Positions 2,941 to 23,440 of a DNA stretch of 31,409 bases are shown piece by piece (the first letter of the stretch is position 1; every line of letters begins with the position of its first letter). The position numbers and the translations under genes are program-made. This DNA comes from a virus. Below the pieces are notes generated by a model. It ran no database searches. It was given only the letters and a program-made list of their open reading frames with translations, and was not told where the DNA came from. Where the stretch lies: the IMG/VR virus record IMGVR_UViG_3300009152_000129, positions 1-31,409 of that record; one strand, written 5' to 3'.

Positions 2941-3070
2941 AATATGCCGAAACTCTATCGTAATGATAAATAAACATGAACCATAAGATTGTTTACTTGG
3001 AACTAAACAATCAACCACACGAGGAGTGATGGCTGTCTGGTTCGCAAGTATTTATAACGAGGAGATTCAC

Positions 3071-4520: not shown

Positions 4521-5255
4521 AATGAATTCTTTTGATAAATTTTTTTCTAAGATAACAATTACTTTAACCTGATTCTGTTCTTGTGCTAGACGAATTTTTT
4601 CTGCATCCAACTTTGCTTTGTAGTTGTTCTTAGGATCAAGATAAATCCCATGATCCACAAGATAGAAATCTGCAAAATAATTACGTCCATTGTATTTTAA
4701 TGCCTTAGGACGAATCCAACGAACATTCATTTCGGTGAGAATTTCAAAACATTTATATTCATAGGAACTTTGTAAAGTCGTTGAATTTCCAAATGAGTCA
4801 ATAACTTTATATTTTTTGCTTCTACCAGCATTTTCTCTATAACCGCCAAGCCCTCGTTCTTTGGCTTGCTTAGAACGTCTCTCACGTTCTGCACTAGTTA
4901 TTTCTTTGGCTATTATTCTACCAGATTCATATCCATTTTTTAATTTTTCAGCACTTCTGCGAATGATGTGATTAGTTTCTTTTGTCTGACCTTTGTTCCA
5001 AGAAGTATGTCCAACGGAATAATTTTTGTAAACTCTGTCTTTGTTTTGAGGACAAGTTCTTGTATGCTGAGTGTGACTAATTTTATTTTTGCAAATTTTA
5101 CCACAATACGCGCAGTTTAGACTTATCGGATCTGAAATTTTATTCCAGATAATTTTGCCGCCCTTGATGATACAACGACTGTGGTGTTTAGATAAATTAT
5201 TTGTCGTGAATTCATCTTTACAATTTATACAACAGTATCTTACTTTATTGTTCAT
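4506..5255 (-). CDS. PD-(D/E)XK (Vsr-like/EDxHD-type) homing endonuclease
   Basis: A 249-aa protein. The N-terminus has two Cys/His fingers (CCINC...HHSRC and CAYCG...HTRTC). Around residues 88-100 is a NUMOD-like GHTSWNKGQTKE motif. The C-terminal domain has the nuclease core: SYEYKCFE (Glu), YFADFYL (Asp) and YLDPKN (D-x-K). This matches the Vsr-related endonucleases associated with fractured phage genes. AGGAG precedes ATG 5255. The last residues (AGLI, stop TAA) are read through the first 15 nt of tRNA-Ile, and a truncated tRNA lies just upstream, as if the element had landed in a tRNA pair. Confidence 0.8.
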   Translation of the reverse strand: MNNKVRYCCINCKDEFTTNNLSKHHSRCIIKGGKIIWNKISDPISLNCAYCGKICKNKISHTQHTRTCPQNKDRVYKNYSVGHTSWNKGQTKETNHIIRRSAEKLKNGYESGRIIAKEITSAERERRSKQAKERGLGGYRENAGRSKKYKVIDSFGNSTTLQSSYEYKCFEILTEMNVRWIRPKALKYNGRNYFADFYLVDHGIYLDPKNNYKAKLDAEKIRLAQEQNQVKVIVILEKNLSKEFIAGLI

Positions 5256-5659: not shown

Positions 5660-5668
5660 TAAATTTGG

Positions 5669-5944
5669 TAGGACCAGCGAGGTTCGAACTCGCGACCAAC
5701 GGATTAACTTACCACTATAGTTTTCACCACCAGATCGCTCTGTTTGTGGTCTGGACTATACCTTCATCATAGCATTTCTGCCTTAGATGCCCGCCGTCTA
5801 GTCTCTACACGTTCCCATTACTGGGCTTCGCTCGGTATCGCCATTTTACAGGGTTCACCGAATTTGACGGGTTCTACTTACAAAATTTCTTTTGTAGCAC
5901 TCCTATTTTAAAGTCCGCTGCTCTACCGGCTGAGCTATAGTCCC
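5669..5944 (-). tRNA. tRNA-Lys(UUU) interrupted by a group I intron
   Basis: The exons join to acceptor GGGACTA/TGGTCCT, D-stem GCTC/GAGC, anticodon stem GCGGA/TCCGT around CTTTTAA (anticodon TTT) and T-arm GCGAG/CTCGC, with A73 and CCA at 5666-5668. The 5' exon spans 5911-5944 and the 3' exon 5669-5707. A consensus promoter lies just upstream at 5965-5993. Confidence 0.88.
5708..5910 (-). ncRNA. Group I intron in tRNA-Lys anticodon loop
   Basis: A 203-nt intron without an ORF. The 5' exon ends in U and the intron ends in G, as group I splicing requires. P7 can form from AGACTA and TATAGTC, P8 from GCAT/ATGC around CTAAGGCAGAA, P9 from CCAGA/TCTGG. The core (TACCGAGCGAAGCCCAG, GGGAACGTGTAGAGACT, CTAAGGCAGAAATGCTATG) is shared with the intron at 13604-13798. 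Exact junctions are inferred from cloverleaf restoration. Confidence 0.85.
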
Positions 5945-6096: not shown

Positions 6097-6170
6097 TAGG
6101 AGATGACGAGTTCGAACCAACATCGTCCTCCTTGTAAGGGAGGTGCATAACCTCTCTGCTCAACTACCCT
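6097..6170 (-). tRNA. tRNA-Val(UAC), degenerate acceptor and D-stem
   Basis: Anticodon arm CCTCC-CTTACAA-GGAGG is identical to that of E. coli tRNA-Val(UAC), and the 3' end GTCATCTCCTACCA is similar. The 5' strand AGGGTAG mismatches ATCTCCT at two positions and the D-stem is poor. The first 11 nt double as the stop region of the upstream HNH gene, which may have altered the 5' end. Confidence 0.72.
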
Positions 6171-6687
6171 TATATTCTCTTAAATAAGAATTTCTCTTAG
6201 TTACTTTTTTGTATCTACTACCTTTTCCCTTACTGCCAAAGTTTTCTGTTTGACTGTGACAGTTAGGACATAACAGTCTTAAATTATTGATATTGTTGTT
6301 ATCACTATCTCCGTCAATATGATCTAATTGTAGCACAAGAGATTTATTATTCCAAGTATCTCCTTGCTCGCATTCAAAACATTTCTTATCAAATTTTTCA
6401 ATAAGATATTTCTTTAATGTATAAGAGGAATTACTCGTGCATTTATTAGATTCAATTCGTGGAATAGTTTCATTAATCCATTTGTACTTACCTTGACAAA
6501 CGTTGTCACAAAATTTGTTAATTTTGCTACGACCACTTAAATTCTCTTTACCGCAATGTAAACACGAATAGAATTTTGAATCTTTTTTTCTATCTATAAA
6601 AAAGCCTGTTTTGCGACTATGTGATCCAACATGACCACCATATTTTTGTCCAGAATCAAATGTTGCTCCGCAATGACAAATATACAT
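6160..6687 (-). CDS. HNH homing endonuclease
   Basis: A 175-aa protein with an N-terminal C2H2-like finger (CHCGATFD...GGHVGSH), a second Cys cluster (CLHCGKENL...FCDNVCQGKY) and a canonical HNH/zinc core at about residues 118-150 (LQLDHIDGDSDNNNINNL, then LLCPNCHSQT, with DHIDG and CPNCH). It is closely similar in layout to the 13843-14442 gene. The Shine-Dalgarno is weak (AGGAAAC, rather far upstream). Its final codons and TGA lie in the 5' end of tRNA-Val, the same arrangement as the 4506-5255 gene with tRNA-Ile. Confidence 0.88.
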   Translation of the reverse strand: MYICHCGATFDSGQKYGGHVGSHSRKTGFFIDRKKDSKFYSCLHCGKENLSGRSKINKFCDNVCQGKYKWINETIPRIESNKCTSNSSYTLKKYLIEKFDKKCFECEQGDTWNNKSLVLQLDHIDGDSDNNNINNLRLLCPNCHSQTENFGSKGKGSRYKKVTKRNSYLREYKGS

Positions 6688-7029: not shown

Positions 7030-7389
7030 CTAGAGTAGCAGACTCTTTCGTCCACTCTCTAGAGCACACTTCATTGCAATTCCCAGCGCTGCGGCACATG
7101 GAAACCTATTGCCACGTTTGAACTTGAAGCCATTTAGCGTAAACGGCTTAAGAACCTCATCGCCATTCCACCATCCACGTTGGACATAAATATACCCGTC
7201 ACGTTCAAGAGACTCACGTAACTTGGTGAATTCTGGATGATCTATAGTACTGATCGCATAACTAGTATTTTCGTAGACTAGCGCATCTACTAATTCATCT
7301 GGCGTTAGTGTTTCTTTATTAGCAAAACGACTAAGACTAGTCTTTTGTGTAACACTAGTTAAATATTCTGATTCAATTGTAAAATTCAT
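7030..7389 (-). CDS. Hypothetical phage protein (119 aa)
   Basis: ORF with TTAGGAG 8 nt before the ATG. The N-terminal half is Thr/Ser-rich and contains TPDELVDALVYE, predicted helical. The C-terminal half contains a compact block (GYIYVQRGWWNGDEVLKPFTLNGFKFKR). No catalytic motif, signal peptide or membrane helix is visible. It is unusual in being an ordinary protein gene embedded in the tRNA cluster. Its ATG overlaps the stop of a 12-codon leader ORF (TAATG), so its translation is probably coupled to that leader. Function unknown. Confidence 0.65.
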   Translation of the reverse strand: MNFTIESEYLTSVTQKTSLSRFANKETLTPDELVDALVYENTSYAISTIDHPEFTKLRESLERDGYIYVQRGWWNGDEVLKPFTLNGFKFKRGNRFPCAAALGIAMKCALESGRKSLLL

Positions 7390-7427
7390 TACGATCTCCT
7401 AACATTTCTATATACACCTGCTGACAT
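7389..7427 (-). CDS. 12-aa leader peptide (MSAGVYRNVRRS)
   Basis: A 13-codon reading frame with a strong Shine-Dalgarno (AAGGAGAT) 5 nt before its ATG; its TAA overlaps the ATG of the next gene. The leader's last codons (AGG AGA TCG) themselves form the Shine-Dalgarno of the 7030-7389 gene. This geometry suggests translational coupling rather than a functional peptide. Confidence 0.5.
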   Translation of the reverse strand: MSAGVYRNVRRS

Positions 7428-7430
7428 ACG

Positions 7431-7451
7431 ATCTCCTTAATAAGAGGAGAT
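7431..7451 (-). promoter_or_regulatory. Hairpin sequestering the leader Shine-Dalgarno
   Basis: A perfect inverted repeat in the RNA: ATCTCCT, 7-nt loop, AGGAGAT. The 3' arm is the leader's Shine-Dalgarno, so folding would block initiation of the leader and of the coupled gene. The same ATCTCCT could alternatively pair with the second AGGAGAT further downstream. Confidence 0.5.
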
Positions 7452-7634
7452 TAGATTTTTTACAGCCGACGATTACCCTACACGGCATCATGAATAGTGT
7501 AGGCTTTACCTGGCATATTTATAAGATAATTGCCAGCATCTAACGAAGGGTGTCTTACCACCCCAAACTAATATATAGTATAAGTATATTATTAATAAGA
7601 CATATATCAGCATGTGTATATAGAAAACGACTGG

Positions 7635-7709
7635 AGCACAGGGCCGGATTCGAACCGGCGGTTTTACGGTTTTGCAAACCGTTGCATTGGGCCTCTCTGC
7701 CACCTGTGC
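7635..7709 (-). tRNA. tRNA-Cys(GCA)
   Basis: Acceptor GCACAGG/CCTGTGC, U73 (Cys identity), CCA encoded, anticodon stem ACGGT/ACCGT around TTGCAAA (anticodon GCA), T-arm GCCGG/CCGGC. Confidence 0.93.
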
Positions 7710-7715
7710 GTTTGG

Positions 7716-7789
7716 TGGTGACGGGCAGGTTCGAACTGCCTTCATTCAGCCTTATGAGGGCTGCGTATTTCCACTAATACTACATCACC
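7716..7789 (-). tRNA. tRNA with CAU anticodon (elongator Met or Ile2)
   Basis: Acceptor GGTGATG/CGTCACC, A73, CCA encoded, D-stem GTAT/ATAC, anticodon stem CAGCC/GGCTG around CTCATAA, T-arm GGCAG/CTGCC. It lacks initiator features, so it is elongator Met or a lysidine-modified Ile2; sequence alone does not decide. Confidence 0.9.
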
Positions 7790-7805
7790 AAATATAAATA
7801 ACAAC

Positions 7806-8221: not shown

Positions 8222-8251
8222 AGACGCACAACATTTCCTTTTGCATATGGC

Positions 8252-8343
8252 GCTGTATTTTCTCCAAGAAGATTGACCTATCGTTCTTCTCTTTACACTG
8301 CGACAGCTTTGAACTGAGAGATCGCAGTAACTTGGAATACAGC
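8252..8343 (-). ncRNA. Structured RNA module G (predicted)
   Basis: Outer stem GCTGTATT/AATACAGC (8 bp), with inner hairpins ACTGCGA/TCGCAGT and AGAAGA/TCTTCT, which gives a three-way junction. No protein-coding potential. Confidence 0.5.
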
Positions 8344-8353
8344 ATAACTTGGC

Positions 8354-8421
8354 GTACATGGAGATCATTTCAATCGTCTTTCGCTCTCGCAAGAGTACCC
8401 TCAATCTTCGGGCTCATGTAC
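8354..8421 (-). ncRNA. Structured RNA module F (predicted)
   Basis: Outer stem GTACATG/CATGTAC extended by AG/CT, with inner hairpin CTCT-TGCG-AGAG. It lies directly downstream of the tRNA-Tyr-like gene. Confidence 0.4.
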
Positions 8422-8430
8422 ATATCTTGG

Positions 8431-8515
8431 TGGGGACTGAAGGAATCGAACCTAATTGCCGCCACTCTGCATATTATGGCAAGTGATTTACAGTCACCCG
8501 CAGAGAACAGCCCCC
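8431..8515 (-). tRNA. tRNA-Tyr(GUA)-like, D-arm almost absent
   Basis: Acceptor GGGGGCT/AGTCCCC, A73, CCA encoded, anticodon stem GGTGA/TCACT around CTGTAAA (anticodon GTA), class II variable region with TTGCC/GGCAA. Only about 10 nt separate acceptor and anticodon arm, too few for a D-arm. The T-stem is weak (AGG/CCT). It may be a pseudogene. Confidence 0.6.
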
Positions 8516-8525
8516 AAAATTCTTT

Positions 8526-8633
8526 ACCATATTTCAACACACTGATGGGCTTCTTTTAAGTCGAACTAACCCCGCACCCTAGTGATTTATTCCTCCCTGG
8601 TCAGAGGTTGTTTTCAATGTGTTGAAATATGGT
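8526..8633 (-). ncRNA. Structured RNA module with 16-bp terminal stem
   Basis: ACCATATTTCAACACA at one end pairs perfectly with TGTGTTGAAATATGGT at the other. Inside are hairpins CCTC/GAGG and CAC-TAGG-GTG. The 16-mer recurs once more at 8794-8809. No ORF; RNA processed at the stem is the simplest reading. Confidence 0.6.
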
Positions 8634-8697
8634 TTCCTACTTTGCGCGACCGTTCGGAACAATTCAAGACGCACCCACTAAGCACAGTGTCCTTGAT

Positions 8698-8783
8698 TCT
8701 CAGACCTGGGACTCGAACCCAGCACACTATCTTAGTTAGTAAGAGTGCAATCTTATTAACTTACGGTGTGAACCTATCTCTGA
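8698..8783 (-). pseudogene. Degenerate class II tRNA-like sequence
   Basis: A perfect T-arm (CTGGG-TTCGAGT-CCCAG) and a possible anticodon arm TAAGA/TCTTA with a 6-nt loop TTGCAC, plus a variable arm ACTA/TAGT. The acceptor strands pair poorly and CCA is not encoded. Confidence 0.4.
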
Positions 8784-8799
8784 TATTGCTTTTACCATA

Positions 8800-8858
8800 T
8801 TTCAACACACTCGTTGCATCAGTCGATAAGAGCAGTCGATACAAAAAATGTGTTGAAA
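8800..8858 (-). ncRNA. Structured RNA module E (predicted)
   Basis: Closed by TTTCAACACA/TGTGTTGAAA (10 bp), enclosing two copies of ATCGACTG. It lies downstream of the promoter at 8914-8942 and its hairpin/boxA leader. Confidence 0.5.
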
Positions 8859-8873
8859 AAAAACTCTATGCTA

Positions 8874-8905
8874 ATTGTATAAAGAACTGTGTTGATTTCT
8901 CAACA
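8874..8905 (-). promoter_or_regulatory. rrn-like leader: GNRA hairpin plus boxA (E)
   Basis: Transcript order: TGTTGA-GAAA-TCAACA hairpin (8890-8905), then AGTTCTTTATACAAT (8874-8888), which resembles the rrn boxA TGCTCTTTAACAAT. It lies immediately after the predicted start of the 8914-8942 promoter. Confidence 0.55.
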
Positions 8906-8913
8906 TTGATGAC

Positions 8914-8942
8914 AGTATATCAGTGTCCTGATTTATTGTCAA
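8914..8942 (-). promoter_or_regulatory. Sigma70 promoter
   Basis: TTGACA (8937-8942), 17 bp, TATACT (8914-8919). The spacer begins ATAAATC, shared with three sister promoters. Confidence 0.85.
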
Positions 8943-8944
8943 GA

Positions 8945-9060
8945 AACTGTCGGGTAGCTTAATGTGTGATTTCCACTACCCTGTTACTCTGTATCAGTCT
9001 AGGCTAATCATTGCTGAAAATTCCTAGCATCAACCTGCGTCACACTGTGTTCAGACAGTT
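8945..9060 (-). ncRNA. Structured RNA module D (predicted)
   Basis: Closed by AACTGTC/GACAGTT, with inner stems GGGTAG/CTACCC and CTAGG/CCTAG. It starts almost exactly at the predicted start of the 9064-9092 promoter and ends 2 nt before the next -35 box. Confidence 0.6.
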
Positions 9061-9063
9061 ATA

Positions 9064-9092
9064 ACTATAACAGGACCGTGATTTATTGTCAA
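9064..9092 (-). promoter_or_regulatory. Sigma70 promoter
   Basis: TTGACA (9087-9092), 17 bp, TATAGT (9064-9069). Confidence 0.83.
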
Positions 9093-9102
9093 CAACTTTC
9101 AA

Positions 9103-9217
9103 TGATTAGATCGAAGTGCACTCGCATCTGCTTTTTGAGCCGCGTGTTCTCCGCCCTTGATTCCTAGACTAGTACTAGGGGCGTGTGCCCATTTACACTA
9201 GCACTTCGATCTAATCA
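9103..9217 (-). ncRNA. Structured RNA module C with 17-bp terminal stem
   Basis: TGATTAGATCGAAGTGC and GCACTTCGATCTAATCA pair perfectly across about 80 nt that themselves fold as GGGC-ACAC-GCCC and CCTAG-TACTAGT-CTAGG hairpins. No coding potential. It follows the hairpin/boxA leader at 9221-9251. Confidence 0.65.
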
Positions 9218-9220
9218 CTG

Positions 9221-9251
9221 AATTTTAAAGAACTACGCTGATTTCTCAACG
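9221..9251 (-). promoter_or_regulatory. rrn-like leader: GNRA hairpin plus boxA (C)
   Basis: CGTTGA-GAAA-TCAGCG hairpin (9236-9251), then AGTTCTTTAAAATT (9221-9234). Compared with the leader at 8874-8905 the stem has changed on both sides (U-A to C-G), i.e. compensatory change. Confidence 0.55.
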
Positions 9252-9259
9252 TTAGAGAC

Positions 9260-9288
9260 AGTATATCAAACTTCTGATTTACTGTCAA
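9260..9288 (-). promoter_or_regulatory. Sigma70 promoter
   Basis: TTGACA (9283-9288), 17 bp, TATACT (9260-9265). Confidence 0.85.
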
Positions 9289-9292
9289 GTTT

Positions 9293-9432
9293 CTGTAGTG
9301 ATCTTGATTCAACACATGATACTATCTAGATGATTCAGTAGCTGTATCGGCCGATTATCTACTATCTGTCACCCTACGCTCCCTTGGTCCTTTGGGAATG
9401 GCTTACCCTGTGCTGAATCAAGATCACTACAG
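9293..9432 (-). ncRNA. Structured RNA module B with 19-bp terminal stem
   Basis: CTGTAGTGATCTTGATTCA pairs perfectly with its reverse complement 100 nt later. The inside contains ATCGGCCGAT within GTAG/CTAC, and TCCC/GGGA. A near-perfect boxA lies directly upstream. A double-stranded stalk of this length is a typical RNase III substrate, as in pre-rRNA. Confidence 0.68.
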
Positions 9433-9463
9433 ATTGTTAAAGAACAGCAGTTTACGCTACTGC
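9433..9463 (-). promoter_or_regulatory. rrn-like leader: hairpin plus boxA (B)
   Basis: GCAGT-AGCGTAA-ACTGC hairpin (9447-9463) followed directly by TGTTCTTTAACAAT (9433-9446), which matches the E. coli rrn boxA TGCTCTTTAACAAT at 13 of 14 positions. Confidence 0.6.
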
Positions 9464-9474
9464 CAAACGAAGAC

Positions 9475-9500
9475 CTGTGGGTTCTCAGGCTACCCCACAC
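9475..9500 (-). ncRNA. Hairpin between modules A and B
   Basis: GTGTGGG and CCCACAG flank a short loop (stem GTGGG/CCCAC), a further stable element in the same transcript. Confidence 0.4.
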
Positions 9501-9510
9501 TAGACGTTAT

Positions 9511-9613
9511 ACTGACAACTGGGATTGTGCTTCCCGAAACATTCTGTAGCGGCGGTGGGAGTTTGTTGTCCCTCGTTTATGCCGACTACACTCAGACCCT
9601 GTTTGTTGTCAGT
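9511..9613 (-). ncRNA. Structured RNA module A (predicted)
   Basis: Closed by ACTGACAAC/GTTGTCAGT. Inner stems: GTAG-CGGC/GCCG-CTAC enclosing GGGA/TCCC, and GGGA-AGCACAA-TCCC. It lies 12 nt after the predicted start of the strongest promoter (9632-9660). No protein-coding potential. Confidence 0.6.
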
Positions 9614-9631
9614 TCTCTAGCGTATGAATAC

Positions 9632-9660
9632 ATTATAGACGAGGCTTGATTTATTGTCAA
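9632..9660 (-). promoter_or_regulatory. Perfect-consensus sigma70 promoter for the RNA array
   Basis: TTGACA (9655-9660), 17 bp, TATAAT (9632-9637). The TGA stop of the 9657-9920 gene is part of the -35 hexamer. Confidence 0.88.
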
Positions 9661-13552: not shown

Positions 13553-13566
13553 GAGAAATTTTTTGG

Positions 13567-13833
13567 CTCCCTGTCGTGGGGTCGAACCACGGACCAACAG
13601 ATTCCGGTTTGTGTGACTTTCGCCACTCCCTGGACTTTATCTTGACCATAGCATTTCTGCCTTAGGTCCCTGCCGTCAAGTCTCTACACGTTCCCGTTTC
13701 TGGGCTTCGCTCGGTATTGCCATATGCTTTCGCACTTAGGTTTCACCGAATTTGACAGGATTTTCAACTACTGTTTCCAATAGAAGTGTCCATTTCTAAA
13801 CAGTCTGCTGCTCTACCTCTGAGCTAACAGGGA
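13567..13833 (-). tRNA. tRNA-Asn(GUU) interrupted by a group I intron
   Basis: The exons give acceptor TCCCTGT/ACAGGGA (7 pairs), G73 and CCA (13564-13566), D-stem GCTC/GAGC, anticodon stem GCAGA/TCTGT around CTGTTAA (anticodon GTT) and T-arm CGTGG/CCACG. 5' exon 13799-13833, 3' exon 13567-13603. G73 fits Asn. The junction is inferred from restoring a 7-nt loop. Confidence 0.82.
13604..13798 (-). ncRNA. Group I intron in tRNA-Asn anticodon loop
   Basis: A 195-nt intron, no ORF, ending in G. AACAGT inside it can pair with ACTGTT of the 5' exon (P1-like guide). Core blocks ATACCGAGCGAAGCCCAG, GGGAACGTGTAGAGACT and CTAAGGCAGAAATGCTATG are shared with the tRNA-Lys intron; peripheral stems differ. 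Confidence 0.84.
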
Positions 13834-13842: not shown

Positions 13843-14442
13843 TTAATAACTTTTTCCTTCAAGATATCGTTTCATTCTTAAATGTCTACCGTTTCCTTTG
13901 TTTTTTCCTTTATAAGTCGGCGTTTGACTATGACAATTAGGACAAAGCAAAGACAAATTACTAATTTCGTTGTTCGTGCTGTTTCCGTCTATATGCTCTA
14001 GTTCCATAACTAGTTCTTTGCCGTTCCACTCCGTTATACCACAATTCCAGCATTTATTTCCGTATTTGTCTAAAAGAAATTTCTTCATCGTCTTTGAAGA
14101 CGCAATCTTTTCTTCTATTTTTTGAAGAGACTGATAATCTTGCTGACACTTGATACTACAATATTTGTTCTTGTTTGCTCTATAATACAGAGTCGTCGTA
14201 TTACAGAATATACAGTTAAAGAAACTTTTCTTTTTATCCTTGGCTAAATTATTAAATGTAGCAGAGCAGGAACTATTACAAAACGCTTTCTTTCTTTTGA
14301 AGTCATCATAAGACAGTGAAGTATTACAATGTTTACACAATTTTGGAGATTTGTTATATGCTATCTCATTGGCTTCTTTTATTTTAGCCCATGTTTTAGC
14401 AGACTCAACCGCTCCTAATTTTCCTGCTTCCGATCTATTCAT
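13843..14442 (-). CDS. HNH homing endonuclease
   Basis: A 199-aa protein with Cys clusters CKHCNTSLSY...FCNSSCSATFNN and CIFCNTTTL...YCSIKCQQDY, then the HNH core (MELEHIDGNSTNNEISNL, LLCPNCHSQT). It is clearly related to the 6160-6687 gene (same HIDG and CPNCHSQT blocks). It lies between tRNA-Thr and the intron-bearing tRNA-Asn, suggesting a tRNA-targeting mobile gene; it is not inside either intron. The Shine-Dalgarno is weak. Confidence 0.88.
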   Translation of the reverse strand: MNRSEAGKLGAVESAKTWAKIKEANEIAYNKSPKLCKHCNTSLSYDDFKRKKAFCNSSCSATFNNLAKDKKKSFFNCIFCNTTTLYYRANKNKYCSIKCQQDYQSLQKIEEKIASSKTMKKFLLDKYGNKCWNCGITEWNGKELVMELEHIDGNSTNNEISNLSLLCPNCHSQTPTYKGKNKGNGRHLRMKRYLEGKSY

Positions 14443-14457
14443 AATTTTATCAAATGG

Positions 14458-14528
14458 TTCCCCGTGACGGTTACGCTCCGCCGACTAATGCTTACAAGGC
14501 AATCGTTATGCTATTTAACTAACGGGGA
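14458..14528 (-). tRNA. tRNA-Thr(UGU)
   Basis: Acceptor TCCCCGT/ACGGGGA, A73, CCA encoded, anticodon loop CTTGTAA (anticodon TGT) on stem ATTGC/GCATT with one U-U mismatch. T-loop AGCGTAA. Confidence 0.85.
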
Positions 14529-14572
14529 ATAATTTTGGCTATATCTTTCAAATAACTAATCTATTTAGACAC

Positions 14573-14675: not shown

Positions 14676-14880
14676 TTTCATCTCCTGTTTTCACACTCTG
14701 TTTGAATGTGCATAGTAAAGAACACCACCGGATGCACTTTACTATATGTGAGACACCATACTAGTGTCTCACAATAGATTTCCCTTTATCGCACTCAGTC
14801 AGCCTAAAGAGTACTCGGCTGCTTCTTAGCGGTCCGGCGCTATTTCTATACCGCGATTTCCTGACGCGGTTTTATTCTGT
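14676..14880 (-). ncRNA. Hairpin-rich region, probable structured leader RNA
   Basis: Successive perfect hairpins: ACCGCG/CGCGGT, TAGCG/CGCTA, CAGCC/GGCTG, TGTGAGACAC/GTGTCTCACA (10 bp) and ATAGTAAAG/CTTTACTAT. No ORF other than the 23-codon one at its end and no clear promoter of its own; it may be read through from 15068. Confidence 0.4.
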
Positions 14881-14883
14881 TAC

Positions 14884-14919
14884 AAAAACAAAAAAACCCT
14901 AGAATTTTTGGTTCTAGGG
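14884..14919 (-). terminator. Rho-independent terminator
   Basis: CCCTAGAA, 7-nt loop, TTCTAGGG followed by a run of seven U in the minus-strand RNA. Confidence 0.85.
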
Positions 14920-14963
14920 TTCAAGTATTTGTAGTATTCTACTTTAGTTCTATACTTGAACCC
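14917..14963 (-). promoter_or_regulatory. Inverted repeat overlapping the terminator (possible anti-terminator)
   Basis: GGGTTCAAGTAT pairs perfectly with ATACTTGAACCC. The terminal CCC is also the 5' end of the terminator stem, so the two hairpins compete for 3 nt. Confidence 0.45.
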
Positions 14964-15057
14964 CGATTAGACCATCATTATAGGCACGGCTAAAGCAGGG
15001 CATAGACCATGTGGTCTGCTCTGATTTCACTGCGATAATGGAATGCTTGTGATTCAT
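14950..15057 (-). CDS. Possible 35-aa leader ORF
   Basis: Begins MNHKHSIIAVKSEQTTW about 4 nt after the predicted transcription start and stops (TAG) inside the 5' arm of the hairpin before the terminator. It has no Shine-Dalgarno, so it would be nearly leaderless. The alternative is a short non-coding RNA with hairpin AGACC-ACAT-GGTCT. Confidence 0.3.
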   Translation of the reverse strand: MNHKHSIIAVKSEQTTWSMPCFSRAYNDGLIGVQV

Positions 15058-15067
15058 AATAGTTACA

Positions 15068-15096
15068 AATATATTATATTTATCAGATCGTGTCAA
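15068..15096 (-). promoter_or_regulatory. Sigma70-like promoter
   Basis: TTGACA (15091-15096), 17 bp, TATATT (15068-15073), driving the short terminated transcript to 14884. Confidence 0.7.
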
Positions 15097-15182
15097 AACA
15101 ATTGGATAACTGCGTTTTTTTGATTGTCTTATATTTTTGAGTTGTTTTCTGACAAATATATATTTTATTTATTCAATAATAA

Positions 15183-15779
15183 TTATTGCTGTGTGTTATT
15201 GCGTTTTTTTGCATAAAAAATATGATTTCCAACAGTCATTACTTTTTCATATTTCCAATTTGGATTTACTGTTGTGTTATGAAAGAACAGCACATTATTT
15301 GGCACTACATCATTCCATGCGTTTTCAGTCAGCACTTTTCGTGCTATATCTTCAGCCTGACGATATGCTAGATTTCTTTCTGGAGTTTGTTTGCCCTCGC
15401 ACACCCAATTAAATTGACAGACTGTTTTATATTGTTCACTGTCTAGCTCAACTTGATTTTTTGCATAAATTACAGCACATGGATTTTTTGCGAAACCATG
15501 TTTGATACGGTTCATTACTACTCTTGCTACCATAACCTGTCCCATGAAGGGTTCGTTGCCTGCTTCGTGGTATATATTTGTGGCCATGCATCTTAGATAT
15601 TCTTTATTAATTGATGCATATGATTTAGCTTGAAATCTTTTTGACTCAATGATTGAGTATATTGCATCATTATAATCCAGTTGTTGCCGATACAGCATGC
15701 CAGAATAAAAAGAAGAGAGCATAATCACCGTGATTAAAAAAAATAAAAAATAAAGTCTACTCTTGCCAGATGTCGGCAT
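15183..15779 (-). CDS. SleB-type cell wall hydrolase (candidate endolysin)
   Basis: A 198-aa protein with a hydrophobic N-terminal segment (about residues 9-28, LYFLFFLITVIMLSSFYSG), which may be a signal anchor. The Hydrolase_2/SleB domain follows: CMATNIYHEAGNEPFMGQV with the catalytic Glu, VARVVMNR, then VIYAKNQVEL and QFNWVCEG. The family cleaves peptidoglycan glycan strands. With a membrane anchor and no separate holin in view it could act as a signal-anchor-release endolysin (inference). GGAGA precedes ATG 15779. It leads the virion-gene block, and no terminator is seen before the RNA genes downstream. Confidence 0.83.
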   Translation of the reverse strand: MPTSGKSRLYFLFFLITVIMLSSFYSGMLYRQQLDYNDAIYSIIESKRFQAKSYASINKEYLRCMATNIYHEAGNEPFMGQVMVARVVMNRIKHGFAKNPCAVIYAKNQVELDSEQYKTVCQFNWVCEGKQTPERNLAYRQAEDIARKVLTENAWNDVVPNNVLFFHNTTVNPNWKYEKVMTVGNHIFYAKKRNNTQQ

Positions 15780-15806
15780 GTTATGTCTCCTATACTATTA
15801 ATTAGT

Positions 15807-18725
15807 TCAGCAATCGCAGTTACATATAGTTACTGTATCTATAGCATCTGTAGTACTATAACTTGCATCATCCGTGGTCACTAGATTATCTGGAACTGGA
15901 TCTGTTCCTGTGTATGGAGATCCAGCAAAGCTACCGGGAACAGTGGTGTTTCCCAGTCTGACGGGTGTTGGGGGTGGATCTATCTGCACTGACAAACATG
16001 CGTTGCCTAGATTGTATCCACTGCCACTATTGACGACAACTATTTTAGATATGCTTCCATTTTCAACAACAGCTTGTGCTACTGCCCCAGACCCAGAACC
16101 ACCGAATACACCACCGCATGGTCCAATTCTTACAGATGGTGGATTTTGATTGCTGTATCCATTTCCTTCGGACAGTATACCGATACTTGCTATTCCTCCG
16201 TTATTTGTCAACTCAAATACTTCTGCTGTTGCTTGATTAGTAATCACTGTATCGGGCACATCATTATCCAATTCACCGCCAACATTTATTATTCTTTGTG
16301 CGTTGCGACTTTCTCTCATCATAGCAATTAAGGATTGTCCGCCCAATAAGGTATTATCTGAAATTGCCTCAAGCACTGGTGCCTCTTGTCCGTATTCTGT
16401 TTTAAGTGCGTAATTTTCTACACTTCGGACAAAAGACTGAAATTCTGTTCCATTGATAAATCCATAAATTTCTTCATTTGTAGTAATTGCCAGTGGTATA
16501 GCTCGCTGTTCAATATATAACTGCTGTCCGATTTTATCCCAGTAGTAATTTAATTTTTCATATAACTGTGGATCTGTAGTAGTTAATTTTAATATTTCTA
16601 AATTAGCTGCATCAATCAAGTCTTGAATTGAATTTTCATATTCTGTTTCATATATGTATATCGCAGTGTATGCGTCTACTCTACTTGTTAGTGGTTGCGT
16701 GACTGTTACTACAGTGTTAGTTCCATTAAAGCTACTACTTAAAACAGTATAGCTATTTGCACCGGTTGAATTAAAAGATATTATTTTTCCACTGGTCAGT
16801 ATTGCGGTCAGATTATGCTGCACAACAATTGTTGTTGTGCTAGCTAAAGCAGTTTCTTGTGTGCAAAATAAAGTGTAGGCGTATTTTGCTTCCCAGCTTG
16901 GTGCTGGATTAACGATAGTATCTTGATATCCTTTTCCACGACTAATTAGAGCCCAATTATTGTTTAATGATTTTTGATACAATTTGTCGTACACAATCTT
17001 GAGCGTGGTATCGGGAACTCTGCTAATTGTTTCTATAAATTGTTGATAATAATCGCGATACGGGTATCCGCTTGCTGCTCCAAAGAAATCACACTGTCTG
17101 TAAGTACCGCCATTTCCACTACCAAGTGCAATCAAGCTTAGCATATCGTTGACTGTTGTTAAGTTAACCGCACTGCTATCTGCGCTATTAATTAACGGTA
17201 GTGCTTTGTCTGTTACTTCAAGATTAGCAACAGTTTGTGCTAGCTTTTCGGTATTCATTAGACGAATGTTTTTAATTTGACTCATGGTCATCATGAAAGC
17301 GCCGGCAGCAATAGTCAACTCATCTGACAATATTCCCGATAGATACTCTCCCCAATTTTCTATTCTGTTGTTAACGCCAGTTTCAGTATAGATGAAATCA
17401 TATACTTTGCTTGTTGCTGGATTATTAATACTGTATTTTGGAATAGTAAGTGTTCTATAACTATTAGGAAACATTTTTTGTGGGTTTAATAGATCCACAA
17501 GAGAAACTAGATTTTCAGTTGTACAATTTAGTATCAACTTTATGTTTTCCAGATCTTGTCCCCGTATTAAATCCAGAGCCGCATATATCTGTTTTTCTTG
17601 TGCAACAGATGGTATGTAAAAGCTTTCAAATATCTTACTTAATTCAATTGTTGTTAGATCGTTGTACAACAATGCCAACTTCAATGCGTCTGTAAGAGCT
17701 CCGTGCGCCTGTAAATTTAATAAAAATTTACTTGGTAATCCAAATTTATCTATATTGGACATGTTCAATGATTTGCCCAATTTAATCATATCATTTCCAA
17801 ATAGTTTGAATGCTAAACTGACTCCAGCAATATCACTGGTGGTCAAATCATTCATGTTACTGAAGTTACCTTTTAGAAAAGTTTTGCTATTTACAAATGA
17901 TGCAATTTCTAAATTTTTAGATTGTTTCCAATTATGACAGTGTTCAAAGCTTTTTATTATTTCTGTGTATTGATTTTTTCTTCTTGTTAGATGATCGGAC
18001 CATAATTCATAGTATGCTTGTCTTGCAACTGTTGCTATAAATCCATGCTTAAAATATTCATCATATTCAATTAGATTTTTATCTCGCTCTCTTAAATCTG
18101 GTCTTGGAAAATACGCGAATTCATAAGTATCAGACCAATACACATTGTTTTCAAATTTATTTCTTGATGGCCAACCAATTACCCATCCATATGGGTGATT
18201 CCATTGATGCTCATATGAGTACGGACCACTAGTTGTTGATCCCCATGTGTTGTATACATAACTGTATGCTCCAGATTTAGGATAATCTTTCGGCGGATAG
18301 ATTTCATTTACTATAGTAATATCGGAAGTAGTTACTGATGTATTACCAAACTCATCAACTGTTTGATAATTCCAGGTACCGTAACCAGCATAGCTAGTCT
18401 TAAATGTATCGGGTCTGCTGTTTCCTAATGCAGGACAATTTATTCTGTTGTCGTTTGCGCGATTAATTGGTCTTCCAATTTTTAATATATTTCTGTAGAG
18501 TTCAACACTGATTATATTATTTTTTGCGAGATTGTAGAAATTCGGAATTGATTGTGTCAGCTTGTTTAACACTGTGGAAGTAGTAATTGTTCCCTGGGTA
18601 TAATTATTAGAAGACCAAGTACCCTGAAAAGAACGAGCGATATCGGATACAAAGAATACTCTGTTTTTTTGTAGTTCTCCGTAGACATTTAGTCCCAGAG
18701 AAGTAAATTTTCCCGTAAAACTCAT
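15807..18725 (-). CDS. Large virion structural protein (tail/baseplate-associated, unknown)
   Basis: A 972-aa protein without enzymatic motifs. The N-terminal 240 residues are aromatic and Gly/Asn-rich; the middle (250-650) is largely helical. Around residues 630-700 are beta-rich repeats, and residues about 850-930 contain GNGYSNQNPP and NSGSGYNLGN with a Gly/Ser-rich GGSGSGAVAQ linker. This pattern is seen in structural proteins of marine T4-like phages. It ends CNCDC. Its gene overlaps the PAAR gene by 4 nt, so I infer a baseplate or tail-tip role. No Shine-Dalgarno was needed to choose the start: the ATG overlaps the PAAR stop. Confidence 0.65.
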   Translation of the reverse strand: MSFTGKFTSLGLNVYGELQKNRVFFVSDIARSFQGTWSSNNYTQGTITTSTVLNKLTQSIPNFYNLAKNNIISVELYRNILKIGRPINRANDNRINCPALGNSRPDTFKTSYAGYGTWNYQTVDEFGNTSVTTSDITIVNEIYPPKDYPKSGAYSYVYNTWGSTTSGPYSYEHQWNHPYGWVIGWPSRNKFENNVYWSDTYEFAYFPRPDLRERDKNLIEYDEYFKHGFIATVARQAYYELWSDHLTRRKNQYTEIIKSFEHCHNWKQSKNLEIASFVNSKTFLKGNFSNMNDLTTSDIAGVSLAFKLFGNDMIKLGKSLNMSNIDKFGLPSKFLLNLQAHGALTDALKLALLYNDLTTIELSKIFESFYIPSVAQEKQIYAALDLIRGQDLENIKLILNCTTENLVSLVDLLNPQKMFPNSYRTLTIPKYSINNPATSKVYDFIYTETGVNNRIENWGEYLSGILSDELTIAAGAFMMTMSQIKNIRLMNTEKLAQTVANLEVTDKALPLINSADSSAVNLTTVNDMLSLIALGSGNGGTYRQCDFFGAASGYPYRDYYQQFIETISRVPDTTLKIVYDKLYQKSLNNNWALISRGKGYQDTIVNPAPSWEAKYAYTLFCTQETALASTTTIVVQHNLTAILTSGKIISFNSTGANSYTVLSSSFNGTNTVVTVTQPLTSRVDAYTAIYIYETEYENSIQDLIDAANLEILKLTTTDPQLYEKLNYYWDKIGQQLYIEQRAIPLAITTNEEIYGFINGTEFQSFVRSVENYALKTEYGQEAPVLEAISDNTLLGGQSLIAMMRESRNAQRIINVGGELDNDVPDTVITNQATAEVFELTNNGGIASIGILSEGNGYSNQNPPSVRIGPCGGVFGGSGSGAVAQAVVENGSISKIVVVNSGSGYNLGNACLSVQIDPPPTPVRLGNTTVPGSFAGSPYTGTDPVPDNLVTTDDASYSTTDAIDTVTICNCDC

Positions 18726-19009
18726 GATACTATTACATCTTCGCTTCCCTCAACAATGCTGTGCCCGCAACTATTTCCACTAGTTATTCGTAGTACATTT
18801 GCACCTTCGCATATTACATCTGTACTAGCACTAGTAGTGCGAGCTTTCTTGTGAGGGGGATGTCTCTTTCTATTCCAGGGAGCGTGAGGAGAAATAGGAC
18901 TTACATGTAATCCAACTGGAATTCCATTGCATAACACATCCGTGGCGCCGCGTTCTATAGCTCCGCCAACTTGATTTTTATCGCCTTTTCTACTCAGTTT
19001 ATTTCCCAT
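18722..19009 (-). CDS. PAAR-domain tail spike-tip protein
   Basis: A 95-aa protein with the PAAR layout: GGAIERGATDVLCNGIPVGL, then HVSPISPHAPW and HPPHKKA His clusters, TDVICEGANVLRI, and CGHSIVEGSEDVIV. The conserved His/Cys residues would bind the metal that sharpens the spike. Size and fold match T4 gp5.4 and the single-domain PAAR family. It sits between the beta-barrel gene and the 972-aa structural gene, indicating baseplate assembly. Confidence 0.88.
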   Translation of the reverse strand: MGNKLSRKGDKNQVGGAIERGATDVLCNGIPVGLHVSPISPHAPWNRKRHPPHKKARTTSASTDVICEGANVLRITSGNSCGHSIVEGSEDVIVS

Positions 19010-19011
19010 TT

Positions 19012-19317
19012 TTATCCTAACACTATTTTTTTACTGGTGGTTGCTATTCCAGTAGTCGCTTCAATATACTTCATTCTGATTGCATCGGCTGTTTCACAAT
19101 GCATCGTGACTGTATTAGTATTTAGTGTTACTGGTTTATCATGTTCGGCAGTAAACATACTTGGAACTAAACCCATGCCTTGATGATTTGGGGCAACACT
19201 AAGTGGCTCTGATAGCAATAGAGTCGTTGCTGTGACTTCAATTACTTTGCCGATGACTTCCTCTCCCGATGAGAGTTTAAAAGTCACCACCTCTCCGACT
19301 AAATTAGAATAACTCAT
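19012..19317 (-). CDS. Small Sm-like beta-barrel protein (101 aa)
   Basis: Begins MSYSNLVGEVVTFKLSSGEE, a typical start of an SH3/Sm-like barrel (strand, turn GEEVIGKVIEVTATTLLLSE). The centre is Met/Pro-rich and the C-terminus beta-rich. It overlaps the glutaredoxin gene by 4 nt and precedes the PAAR gene. Function unknown. Confidence 0.6.
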   Translation of the reverse strand: MSYSNLVGEVVTFKLSSGEEVIGKVIEVTATTLLLSEPLSVAPNHQGMGLVPSMFTAEHDKPVTLNTNTVTMHCETADAIRMKYIEATTGIATTSKKIVLG

Positions 19318-19535
19318 AACAATCTTTCTTGTAATTCTTTAAATCCACCAACGCACACATCACCAAAAAATATCTGCGGAACTGATCTGGCGCTTGGCGC
19401 AACTGCTAATAAATCGTCTCTGGTCCAGCCGTCTCCGATTTTTCTTTCTTCGTAGTCTACGCTCTTGCTCTTTAAAAGAGCCTTTGATTGCTCACATTGT
19501 GAGCAATTCTCTTTACTCCATACTATAACTTTCAT
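19314..19535 (-). CDS. nrdC: Glutaredoxin-like redox protein
   Basis: A 73-aa thioredoxin-fold protein with redox motif CSQC at residues 11-14, a cis-Pro segment SVPQIFF and the GG-FKEL glutathione-side motif. It is one domain, in line with T4 NrdC and NrdH-type glutaredoxins. Family role: electron donor for class Ia ribonucleotide reductase. Its location directly downstream of nrdB supports that. AAGGAGAA lies about 6 nt before the ATG. The symbol is given by analogy to T4. Confidence 0.85.
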   Translation of the reverse strand: MKVIVWSKENCSQCEQSKALLKSKSVDYEERKIGDGWTRDDLLAVAPSARSVPQIFFGDVCVGGFKELQERLL

Positions 19536-19559
19536 ATTATTCTCCTTATTTACTTAGCA

Positions 19560-20660
19560 TCAAATATCAGGCAGCAAAAGTTTATCAACGCTATCACTTA
19601 ATACTCCAATAACATAGTTCGTACTTTCAGACTCTTGAAGTGCTACCTGCTTTTTATTAATATTGGTATGTTTTGTGAACCATGGAATAGGAGTGCTTTT
19701 TGGATGCTGTACTTGATACTTGATTCCAATATCTTTTAGACGAGTGTAGGCTGTCCAATCCACAAAATCTTTAAGAATTTCGGCATTTAGCCCAATTACT
19801 GGTCCTTTCTTGAACAGATAATCAGCCCATGCTTTTTCTTCTGCAATCACAGACTCGTACATGCTGTAAACTTCAGCAGCACACTCGTCAACAACGACTG
19901 CAAAACGTGAATCTTCCTTTACTACTTGATTAATAATCCATGCAGTCCAGTCAGCGTGTAGTAATTCATCCTGTAGTATTAGACTAATAATATTACCATT
20001 GCCGATGTAGATTTTGTTTTCTACCATGGCTAGACTTGTAGCAAATGAAACCATAAAACGCAGTGCCTCAAGTGCGTAACTGGCATGTAGTGCTAGCCAT
20101 ATTGCTTTGATGTGATGACTTTCAGCGACATCGGTACCTGTTTCTTTGAAACAATTCAGTGTGTGTAAGGCATCATAATACTTACCAACACTGCTGGCCA
20201 TTTCAACGATTTCACTCGTGTCGTGAATGGTATTAAATACATCCTTAGGGACACCATAGATGTTTCTGATGATGTGTGAGTATGACTTAGAGTGAATGTT
20301 TGTTTCAAAAAAACTCCAGTTACTAACCAATGCTTCTAACTCTGGGATAGAGATAACTGGTCCGAATACTTGTGCAGGAGCACGACCTTGAATACTGTCC
20401 AGTGCAGTTTGCCGCAATAAGTTACTAGTAAAGATATGCTTGATGGCCTCAGTGGCATCTTTATGATCCATCTTGTCTTTTGTCAATGAGATTTCTTCTG
20501 GAACCCAAAAGAATCCCCGCGCCGTATCCTCGTACTTTTGAAGTTTGGGATACTTAACTTCTTCAAACCTTTGAATTACTACCGGACCCTCTGGGTCTAG
20601 AAACATTGTTCGCTGTAGATAGTTTGTTTTCTTTGATAAATTGTATTGTTCTTTAGACAT
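19560..20660 (-). CDS. nrdB: Ribonucleotide reductase class Ia small subunit
   Basis: A 366-aa NrdB. Diiron ligands and radical residues can be matched to E. coli: FFETNIHSKSYSHIIRNI gives Glu115, His118 and Tyr122 (radical Tyr present), ASYALEALRF gives Glu204, and LILQDELLHADW gives Glu238 and His241. An early DKMDHKDA/AIKHIF region supplies the Asp ligand side. Length fits the family (375 in E. coli). It supplies the tyrosyl radical to NrdA for dNTP synthesis. AAAGGA precedes ATG 20660. No intein is present here, in contrast to nrdA. Confidence 0.95.
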   Translation of the reverse strand: MSKEQYNLSKKTNYLQRTMFLDPEGPVVIQRFEEVKYPKLQKYEDTARGFFWVPEEISLTKDKMDHKDATEAIKHIFTSNLLRQTALDSIQGRAPAQVFGPVISIPELEALVSNWSFFETNIHSKSYSHIIRNIYGVPKDVFNTIHDTSEIVEMASSVGKYYDALHTLNCFKETGTDVAESHHIKAIWLALHASYALEALRFMVSFATSLAMVENKIYIGNGNIISLILQDELLHADWTAWIINQVVKEDSRFAVVVDECAAEVYSMYESVIAEEKAWADYLFKKGPVIGLNAEILKDFVDWTAYTRLKDIGIKYQVQHPKSTPIPWFTKHTNINKKQVALQESESTNYVIGVLSDSVDKLLLPDI

Positions 20661-20702
20661 TTGATTGTTCCTTTTATAGTAATCCTGCAGTTCTACTGGT
20701 TG

Positions 20703-21314
20703 TCATTTTCTATATTTCCCACTCGTCAATACGATCTTACAAATATGTTCCATTCTCTCTGCATGTTCAAATGCACGCCAGGGACTAGTGTCTACTGCAA
20801 CTATGCCGTGCCTGTCTATTCCCACAATGTGATTGTAGACTCCGCCATCACTGTGTAAATTTAGTGCTGATATAGACTCATCAGCAAGTACTTGACTAAT
20901 TGGTGGGACATTAGGTACATTTCTCCCAACACGAGTATATCGTCCTAGTTCTGGAAATTCCTTGACTAGGTCGGCAAGTTGGATTCCAGCATACATAGCA
21001 GCAACTGTATATGTAGGATGCATGTGTAACACAACACGCACCTCAGTATCAATTTTGCGTTGTAGACCCCAGTGTAGAGGTAATTCTCCACTGGGTTTCA
21101 GTGCGCCACTTAGATCGGTGTATGATAACGCACACTGTGCATTGATGTCCCATTTGATAAACATTTCTGGCTGTAGTGTTTGCTTTCGTATACCACTTGG
21201 TGTGATATACATATGATCGCGATCACGCCAACGAACACTGGCATTACCATCACGAGCAGTAATCCAATTACGCTTATATGCTTCTTGAAATATTTCGCTT
21301 ACTGTTTCTAACAT
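20703..21314 (-). CDS. Class II aldolase/adducin-family protein
   Basis: A 203-aa protein with the metal-dependent class II aldolase fold: GNASVRWRDRDHMYITPSG near the N-terminus, catalytic-type Glu in KPSGELPLHWGL, zinc ligands in VVLHMHPTY, and a later His in FEHAERMEH. Family members act on fuculose-, rhamnulose- or methylthioribulose-phosphate. The substrate here is unknown. It is placed between nrdA-C and nrdB in the same orientation, which suggests a part in sugar-phosphate or nucleotide metabolism during infection (inference). Confidence 0.85.
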   Translation of the reverse strand: MLETVSEIFQEAYKRNWITARDGNASVRWRDRDHMYITPSGIRKQTLQPEMFIKWDINAQCALSYTDLSGALKPSGELPLHWGLQRKIDTEVRVVLHMHPTYTVAAMYAGIQLADLVKEFPELGRYTRVGRNVPNVPPISQVLADESISALNLHSDGGVYNHIVGIDRHGIVAVDTSPWRAFEHAERMEHICKIVLTSGKYRK

Positions 21315-21325
21315 TTAATTATTTC

Positions 21326-22309
21326 CTATAATTTGCAGCTTTCGCATTGTGATTCATCATCTTGTGTCATTTCTGTTGAGGTAGTAAACTGAACTACATT
21401 ATCAGCTTCAGACAACCCTTTCTTAGCGCCCATCTTATTGATCAAACTATAATATACGGTTTTTCCACCCCAGTAGTTATACAACATAAGATTCTTTGCT
21501 ACTAGCGTGGCTGGAACCTTATTACCTTCATAATGAGCGGGATTATAGAAAGTATTAGTACTAATACTCTGATCTACATATGCGGCTAGCACTGCCGCAG
21601 TCTTTAGATAATCAAGACAGTCGTTTTGATCCCACATCAATTGATACTTGTTCTTTAGTCGCTTGTACTCTGGTACGACTTGAACAAAGCTTCCTGCTTT
21701 GCTTTCTTTTACACTGACCAGTTCCATAGGCATTTCAATGCCATTAGTGCTGTTCAATACTACACTAGAACTTTCAACAGGGGCGATTGCGAGAAGCACA
21801 GCATTACGAATGCCAGACTTTAGTAACCGACTGCGTAACGGCTCCCAATCTAGACTTGGCGTAAAATCGGTTAGATCATTAACACCTTCTGCTCTACGCT
21901 CCCACGGGAAAACACCACGGCCATACCAGGTGTGTTCGCTACGAGCACATGCGCCTCGTTCCTCTGCTAGTTCAATACTAGCTTCAGTTAAGTAATATGC
22001 CTGATGTTCTATAAACTTTTTTGTTATTGCTAATCCTTCAGAAGAACCGTAAGTGAGGTTTCTTTTAGCCAGAAAATATGCTAAGTTGGTAATACCGATA
22101 CCCAATGGTTCGAAATCACGATTAGCTAGTTCACTTTGAATGCTTAGAAAGTCTTGATAATTTAGTAGATTACTCAATGAACGAACTAATATACGGCAAG
22201 CTTTACGCATATCTTGTGGATTTCGAAAAGCACCCCAATTGATACTCCCAAGAGTACAAAGAGCCACTCTACCACCTTCATTAATACATTCTTTTTTTAC
22301 TATTTTCAT
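21326..22309 (-). CDS. nrdA: Ribonucleotide reductase large subunit, C-terminal piece
   Basis: A 327-aa protein. From residue 12, GGRVALCTLGSINWGAF aligns with E. coli NrdA NGEIALCTLSAFNLGAI (redox Cys462). Then ESSSVVLNSTNGIEMP, the DQSISTNTFYNP segment and the C-terminal CESCKL, i.e. the shuttle Cys pair. The first 11 residues (MKIVKKECINE) are not NrdA; MKIVKKE resembles the start of a C-intein, but the rest of a C-intein and the terminal His-Asn are missing. AAGGA lies 8 nt before the ATG. It overlaps no gene but abuts the GIY-YIG gene. Whether it joins the middle piece covalently is unclear. Confidence 0.93.
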   Translation of the reverse strand: MKIVKKECINEGGRVALCTLGSINWGAFRNPQDMRKACRILVRSLSNLLNYQDFLSIQSELANRDFEPLGIGITNLAYFLAKRNLTYGSSEGLAITKKFIEHQAYYLTEASIELAEERGACARSEHTWYGRGVFPWERRAEGVNDLTDFTPSLDWEPLRSRLLKSGIRNAVLLAIAPVESSSVVLNSTNGIEMPMELVSVKESKAGSFVQVVPEYKRLKNKYQLMWDQNDCLDYLKTAAVLAAYVDQSISTNTFYNPAHYEGNKVPATLVAKNLMLYNYWGGKTVYYSLINKMGAKKGLSEADNVVQFTTSTEMTQDDESQCESCKL

Positions 22310-23439: not shown

Positions 23440-23440
23440 G

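Follow-up and report, generated by a model that had tools for sequence, protein, structure and literature searches.

An Azoarcus-like group I intron in a phage tRNA-Asn gene, probably acquired separately from the intron in tRNA-Lys of the same phage

Self-splicing chemistry has been established for the group I intron in the tRNA-Ile gene of Azoarcus. Introns of the Azoarcus type (group IC3) interrupt tRNA-Ile2(CAU) at site 36/37, and introns of the same broad family interrupt tRNA-Leu(UAA) in bacteria and phages at site 34/35. Phage introns tend to occupy conserved protein-coding genes, according to a 2014 review (PMC3984707). Collaborative homing pairs, each consisting of an ORF-less intron and a free-standing homing endonuclease gene beside the host gene, have been described from T7-like phages and from a cyanophage, where the hosts are protein genes such as psbA and terminase (PMC10448857, PMC3984707). 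SegB, encoded by a free-standing gene within the tRNA cluster of T4/T6, is needed for the T4 tRNA region to be inherited preferentially (PMC2988022, PMC3984707); it is a GIY-YIG enzyme and shows no tRNA isotype preference (PMC13096335).

The locus described here lies in 31,409 nucleotides of viral DNA (IMG/VR record IMGVR_UViG_3300009152_000129, positions 1 to 31,409), the whole of which is called the window. The split tRNA-Asn(GUU) gene occupies 13833..13564 on the minus strand and contains a 195-nt ORF-less group I intron (13798..13604). Its P3-P8 catalytic core was matched by RF00028 using Rfam cmscan (13811-13611, minus strand, 61.9 bits; gathering score 50). Exact boundaries of this intron and of a second one in tRNA-Lys were obtained by removing the insert at many candidate 5′ ends and rescoring the joined exons with ARAGORN. 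For tRNA-Asn, one sensible reading resulted, with the cut after U36 (GCAGA-CUGUU/AA-UCUGU), a 5′ exon at 13799..13833 that ends in CUGUU, an intron at site 36/37 that ends in omega-G (13604..13798) and a 3′ exon with CCA included (13564..13603), all on the minus strand. The anticodon stem GCAGA/UCUGU pairs at 5/5 positions, and the joined exons give a complete tRNA with the loop CUGUUAA and match the tRNA-Asn genes of 284 phage records (best 87%, full length). The original prediction of a 195-nt group I intron in tRNA-Asn, removal of which restores an intact anticodon loop, agrees with both the RF00028 match and the exon reconstruction; the span that it gave, 13567-13833, located the gene and left out its last three bases (13566-13564). 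ARAGORN run without the intron option missed both split tRNA genes and with the option miscalled them, as Pro(CGG) and Leu(UAA); a tmRNA call at 7387-7805, which overlaps two tRNAs, was discarded as spurious.

Within the intron, the P1 internal guide GGACA (13787..13791, minus strand), as read from the sequence, pairs with exon UGUU and intron U1 and forms a U36.G pair at the splice site; the intron ends in CCGG, with G as its last base. The P5 extension hairpin AAGUGCGAAAGCAUAU (13722..13737, minus strand) was found in alignments of the site-36 lineage and was absent from the tRNA-Lys intron and its Leu/Thr34 relatives. The P9 domain, GAGUGGCGAAAGUCAC plus ACAAACCGG (13604..13628, minus strand), has the Ile2/Azoarcus-type 3′ end that is common to viral and betaproteobacterial tRNA-Ile2(CAU) introns. 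Insertion site, similar size, P5 extension and P9/3′ end (CACAAACCRG) are those of the Azoarcus-type tRNA-Ile2(CAU) introns, and the likeness presumably extends to the Azoarcus intron sequence itself. The differences are the host, a phage tRNA-Asn(GUU) gene, the guide, changed to GGACA, and compensated changes in P3 and P8. The tRNA-Leu(UAA) introns share the catalytic core, but they differ in site and P9 domain, their phage members have no such P5 extension, and the Asn intron was not grouped with them on whole-intron trees. Among group I introns, the Asn intron is best placed with the Azoarcus-like ones of tRNA genes (IC3-like), and by its features it most likely self-splices.

The proposed fold was tested on an alignment of 12 site-36 introns, using RNAalifold helices plus the P7 pseudoknot, 500 shuffles and slid controls. 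Over 45 pairs including the P7 pseudoknot, 95.3% of cells pair, and both-sided (compensatory) changes were found at 21/45 pairs, with P3, P7 and P8 among the helices concerned; none of the 500 shuffles was as high, and the slid controls gave 27–39%. A P7 pair is A-U in 7 and U-A in 5 of the 12 introns. Two Asn introns of this type were found, one in the window and one in a sister phage; compared with Ile2 introns, both have double changes in P3 and P8. They differ from each other by six substitutions and one indel, and the differences in P2, P5 and P8 stay paired. Because of the covariation and the pairing kept in these sister differences, selection appears to maintain the folding of the Asn intron RNA.

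The second split gene, tRNA-Lys(UUU), is also on the minus strand and was reconstructed in the same way as GCGGA-CUU/UUAA-UCCGU. It consists of a 5′ exon ending in CUU (U34; 5911..5944), a 203-nt ORF-less intron at site 34/35 (5708..5910) and a 3′ exon (5666..5707). The RF00028 match is at 5920-5738 (62.9 bits). In its P1, exon ACUU pairs with guide GGAGU, again with U.G at the splice site, and the intron ends in G. Both introns are ORF-less and too small to hold an endonuclease gene, and both belong to one broad family of tRNA introns. The three core blocks that the original prediction had noticed in both are indeed identical, and the exon guides (GGACA and GGAGU) and periphery (P5 extension and P9 domain) are unlike, as it had said. 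One block, GGGAACGTGTAGAGACT, is common across the intron family; ATACCGAGCGAAGCCCAG is exact only in the window Asn, window Lys and sister Asn introns, and CTAAGGCAGAAATGCTATG only in these three and in locus L196 (tRNA-Thr). Because the latter two blocks are unusual, their sharing goes beyond chance, yet it is no proof of direct copying; both, in P6/P8, look Lys/Thr34-like rather than Ile2-like.

Relatives were gathered by pattern scans of viral contigs and bacterial genomes; since the loci were collected by intron patterns and many are related, lineage counts are not an unbiased sample. In a whole-intron tree of 93 tRNA introns, the site-36 set (11 CAU, 2 Thr and 1 Asn, near-duplicates removed) was split from all others at 100/99, with the 5′ part of the tree blurred by some automatically assigned 5′ ends, a few of wrong length. 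An earlier, smaller set of 42 rows gave the same split at 98/99. On both trees the Asn intron was monophyletic with tRNA-Ile2(CAU) introns, and the viral and betaproteobacterial site-36 Ile2 introns formed one clade with it; in the larger tree it joined the 13 other site-36 introns, which have the P5 extension and a distinct P9 in common, and the Lys intron fell among the Leu, Thr34 and Lys introns. The two window introns are on opposite sides of the split, and their insertion sites, P5 extensions and P9 domains differ. A tree of the catalytic core alone, in which the P5-extension columns dropped below the 30% fill filter, did not keep the two lineages apart: the site label needed 7 changes, the site-36 introns as one clade had p = 0.08 in the AU test, and Asn and Lys were not sisters there either. 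Asn and Lys as sisters gave AU p values of 0.058 for whole introns and 0.363 for the core. By core identity, the best match of the Asn intron was an Ile2 intron, L033 (81%), and that of the Lys intron the site-34 tRNA-Thr intron L196 (88.6%). Because the AU test does not reject sisterhood, separate acquisition is argued from structure and insertion site no less than from likelihood; with these taken together, the two introns are probably not copies of each other, and separate acquisitions are best supported.

The wider family of introns was found in viral contigs at site 33/34 (CAU), at 34/35 (Leu UAA, Lys UUU, Arg UCU, Thr UGU, Ile UAU and Ser UGA), at 35/36 (Asn GUU) and at 36/37 (CAU, Thr UGU and, in two cases only, Asn GUU). 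The 33-35-site lineage occupies Leu, Thr, Lys, Arg and other tRNAs, and the 36/37-site lineage tRNA-Ile2, Thr and Asn. Viral Asn introns occur at 36/37 (site-36 type) and at 35/36 (the other type), and Thr(UGU) introns at 36/37 and 34/35; because Asn and Thr were each invaded at two sites and the P9 domains differ, the periphery follows the site and not the tRNA species. The second, separate class of viral introns in tRNA-Asn(GUU), which sit at site 35/36 and have a Leu-type 3′ end, was seen at L133:4362-4571, L164:810-1008, L170:5904-6119 and L222:287-495, so that tRNA-Asn was invaded twice, at neighbouring positions. In the bacterial survey, RF00028 matched 56/369 genomes. Most of the loci read (the best 30 plus 5 earlier loci) were CAU36; Thr36 and Leu34 also occurred, one locus was read as Lys(CUU)36, and no Asn intron was readable among the best 30 of the 56 matching genomes and the 5 earlier loci. 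The tRNA-Lys(CUU) reading, at site 36/37 in a bacterial genome (L256), is unexpected from the classic bacterial cases. Spread of introns between tRNA anticodon loops, as originally proposed, holds for the family, whose members changed tRNA species repeatedly (20 changes on the tree for 11 tRNA/site labels); it is not supported for the proposed pair, tRNA-Lys and tRNA-Asn of this phage, given the 100/99 split, the structural differences and a sister phage that has one intron only.

The sister phage is represented by contig G008 (L105-L107), which is syntenic with window 14701-27333 at about 67–79% DNA identity. Its tRNA-Asn gene with the intron is 96.4% identical to that of the window, including the GACA of the guide, and at both ends the matching block stops about 7 nt or less from the edge of the gene, where unlike flanks begin. 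Because the identity stops at the gene edges and the flanks differ, the comparison points to a recent exchange of the whole intron-bearing tRNA-Asn gene as a unit. An intronless allele was found for tRNA-Lys(UUU), which is uninterrupted in G008 (L106:9292-9366). Since G008 has the Asn intron and not the Lys intron, the intron content of the two genes varies independently. For tRNA-Asn, locus L095 was considered as an empty site and rejected as a different, divergent tRNA-Asn, which leaves no clean empty allele. The gene order is tRNA-Thr(UGU), HNH gene, tRNA-Asn in the window; in G008, tRNA-Thr(UGU) is directly upstream of tRNA-Asn and there is no HNH gene beside it. Because G008 keeps the intron nevertheless, the HNH gene is dispensable for maintenance of the Asn intron.

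Other regions shared with G008 were also noted. In window 8245-9660, patches are 92–97% identical to G008 despite about 30% genome difference, which suggests recent patchwork exchange in the tRNA region. Window 21326-27333 encodes NrdA (RNR large subunit) with an intein (LAGLIDADG match, about 25391-26642), further broken by two split-intein-like gaps with a homing-endonuclease ORF (23441-24436) and a GIY-YIG-like ORF (22310-23002); the G008 NrdA region is without the first insert and most of the rest. The arrangement resembles the "fractured genes" with split inteins of environmental phages.

The free-standing HNH endonuclease gene beside tRNA-Asn in the window (13843..14442, minus strand, 199 aa; PHROG HNH families, best E 5e-26) lies between tRNA-Thr(UGU) and tRNA-Asn, 9 nt upstream of the latter. 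The tRNA-Thr(UGU) upstream of it (14458..14528, minus strand; RF00005 47.4 bits) is degenerate by comparison with the sister tRNA-Thr and may be an HNH-resistant or decaying allele; its T arm is odd (region 14455-14535), and a similar odd tRNA-like sequence is present in G008 (L106:6929-7011). A second free-standing HNH gene (6160..6687, minus strand, 175 aa; Pfam PF01844 E 1.3e-4, PHROG HNH and adjacency) overlaps tRNA-Val(UAC) and is about 215 nt from tRNA-Lys, with tRNA-Val and tRNA-Pro between. The first HNH has 22 relatives among viral and phage records, and 17 of these are accompanied by a tRNA-Thr(UGU) gene no more than 250 nt away, mostly at 35 nt or less; of the non-adjacent tRNAs at these 22 loci, 1/71 is Thr(UGU). 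Using a family profile, HNH ORFs within 100 nt (≤100 nt) were counted at 19/88 intron-bearing and 10/389 intronless tRNAs of the same viral loci (OR 10, Fisher p 8e-9, a value that overstates independence because the counts include related loci); six further introns, each overlapped by an HNH ORF, were set aside. In the HNH tree, a mostly Leu-linked clade was apart from the Thr-linked members, and the window HNH was nearest by path to L196. That locus (L196:1730-2595) consists of a tRNA-Thr(UGU) gene with a site-34 intron, directly followed by a Thr-type HNH gene, and is the best candidate for a collaborative homing pair in a tRNA gene. The window HNH is probably aimed at tRNA-Thr(UGU), with the Asn gene carried along; because the nuclease looks Thr-linked, the Asn intron would be hitch-hiking rather than homing with a dedicated enzyme. 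Two further ORFs of the tRNA cluster (window 4506-5255 and 3026-3937) had weak or no family matches and are perhaps additional homing-type nucleases; one is weakly Holliday junction resolvase-like, with zinc-finger-like cysteines.

These observations are brought together in the following reading, to which we assign a probability of about 0.64: Azoarcus-like self-splicing, separate acquisition of the two introns, and spread through recombination of DNA around tRNA genes, to which tRNA-linked HNH endonucleases probably contribute. An external guanosine would cut the tRNA-Asn transcript after U36, at a site held by P1 (UGUU with GGACA), and exon ligation would restore the 7-nt loop CUGUUAA. The Asn intron, from a lineage specialized for site 36/37, would have been acquired independently of the Lys intron from the 33-35-site lineage, and would have passed from phage to phage in DNA form, through homologous recombination in tRNA clusters that swaps the entire tRNA gene together with its intron. 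Free-standing HNH homing endonucleases that cut at tRNA genes would be the likely driver, with co-conversion of the adjacent intron-bearing tRNA. The analysis establishes the anatomy of intron and exons, the conserved fold, the lineage placement, the contrast with the sister phage, and the proximity and enrichment of HNH genes; splicing, HNH cleavage and its target, and the direction and route of transfer are what we infer from these. The most likely route would start from breaks that HNH enzymes make at tRNA genes and would carry neighbouring genes along by co-conversion, in the way known for SegB and the collaborative homing pairs. As in those pairs, an ORF-less intron and a free-standing homing-type nuclease gene lie beside each other; here, however, the hosts are tRNA genes, and the HNH gene is missing from the sister phage that has the Asn intron. 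As with SegB, the nuclease gene is free-standing within a tRNA cluster, but it is of the HNH type, tRNA-Thr(UGU)-linked and from a family enriched by intron-bearing tRNAs.

The original prediction was that introns had spread between tRNA anticodon loops, possibly by reverse splicing, as neither intron encodes an endonuclease. In full, this model would have one intron move between tRNA-Lys and tRNA-Asn within this phage line by reverse splicing into the other tRNA, with reverse transcription and recombination to follow. The introns are ORF-less as claimed, but the argument from this is weak because HNH genes lie near both intron-bearing tRNAs and are enriched at such genes. Two of the shared core blocks are rather rare, the Lys intron is the second-best core match of the Asn intron among 89 (76.7%), the P1 guide of each fits its own exon and the AU test does not reject sisterhood, all of which such copying would account for. 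It was set aside on the whole-intron tree and the structure (the core-only tree and the AU test do not reject it), that is, on the 100/99 split and the unlike site, P5 extension and P9 domain. In addition, the sister phage holds the Asn intron only, none of the scanned window proteins was recognized as a reverse transcriptase, and the full reverse-splicing pathway is without direct experimental evidence according to a review (PMC3984707); we regard copying within the phage as improbable. The rare blocks leave room for convergence or a small P6-P8 exchange, and a mosaic origin would explain them by in-phage recombination that joined Ile2-type ends and P5 to P6-P8 of a resident site-34 intron. 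The P8 block is exact in the window Asn, sister Asn, window Lys and L196 introns and has 6–10 mismatches in 13/14 other site-36 introns, and an interval test was weakly positive (p 0.02–0.19, uncorrected). Short hairpins converge easily, however, the interval tests are mixed as well as uncorrected, a like P6 form occurs in the Ile2 intron L033, and the sister phage, in which no Lys intron was found, carries the same blocks. Mosaicism, which is compatible with separate acquisition and recombination as set out above, is rather unlikely.

Dedicated collaborative homing, in which the HNH at 13843-14442 would cut the anticodon region of an intronless tRNA-Asn and home together with the intron, would fit a nuclease gene that ends 9 nt from tRNA-Asn, the enrichment of HNH genes by intron-bearing tRNAs and the precedent of T7-like phages and a cyanophage (PMC10448857, PMC3984707). 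The relatives of this gene track tRNA-Thr(UGU), which flanks it here too, so a dedicated partnership with tRNA-Asn was ranked below one with tRNA-Thr(UGU), and the intron without HNH in the sister phage argues that nuclease and intron are not inherited together; we consider dedicated homing unlikely. That the insert is a decayed, non-splicing relic in a tRNA-Asn pseudogene is very improbable: the neighbouring tRNA-Thr looks degenerate, but the catalytic core of the intron is conserved, the sister differences in P2, P5 and P8 keep pairing and the exons make up a complete tRNA. Separate acquisition with recombination around tRNA genes, probably HNH-assisted, is preferred. A more general proposal is held tentatively, at somewhat less than even odds: free-standing HNH enzymes specific for tRNA isoacceptors would home jointly with ORF-less introns into anticodon loops, any U at loop positions 33-36 could serve as a site, and phage tRNA genes would be a main reservoir for the transfer of introns among tRNA species and between phages and bacteria.

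The Asn intron itself is a known intron type in an unusual host gene. A literature search that covered few subscription journals turned up no work surveying the tRNA genes of phages for group I introns, and the wider pattern (many phage tRNA species, four loop positions and ties to HNH genes) seems undescribed in the literature searched. Phage group I introns have been described mainly from protein genes; here they are found in viral tRNA genes with eight anticodons and at four neighbouring loop positions, and HNH genes are statistically tied to the intron-bearing genes. Counts of phage tRNAs from standard scans are too low because interrupted tRNAs are missed or miscalled. The candidate enzymes and their targets are short and lie next to each other, which makes the movement of ORF-less tRNA introns directly testable.
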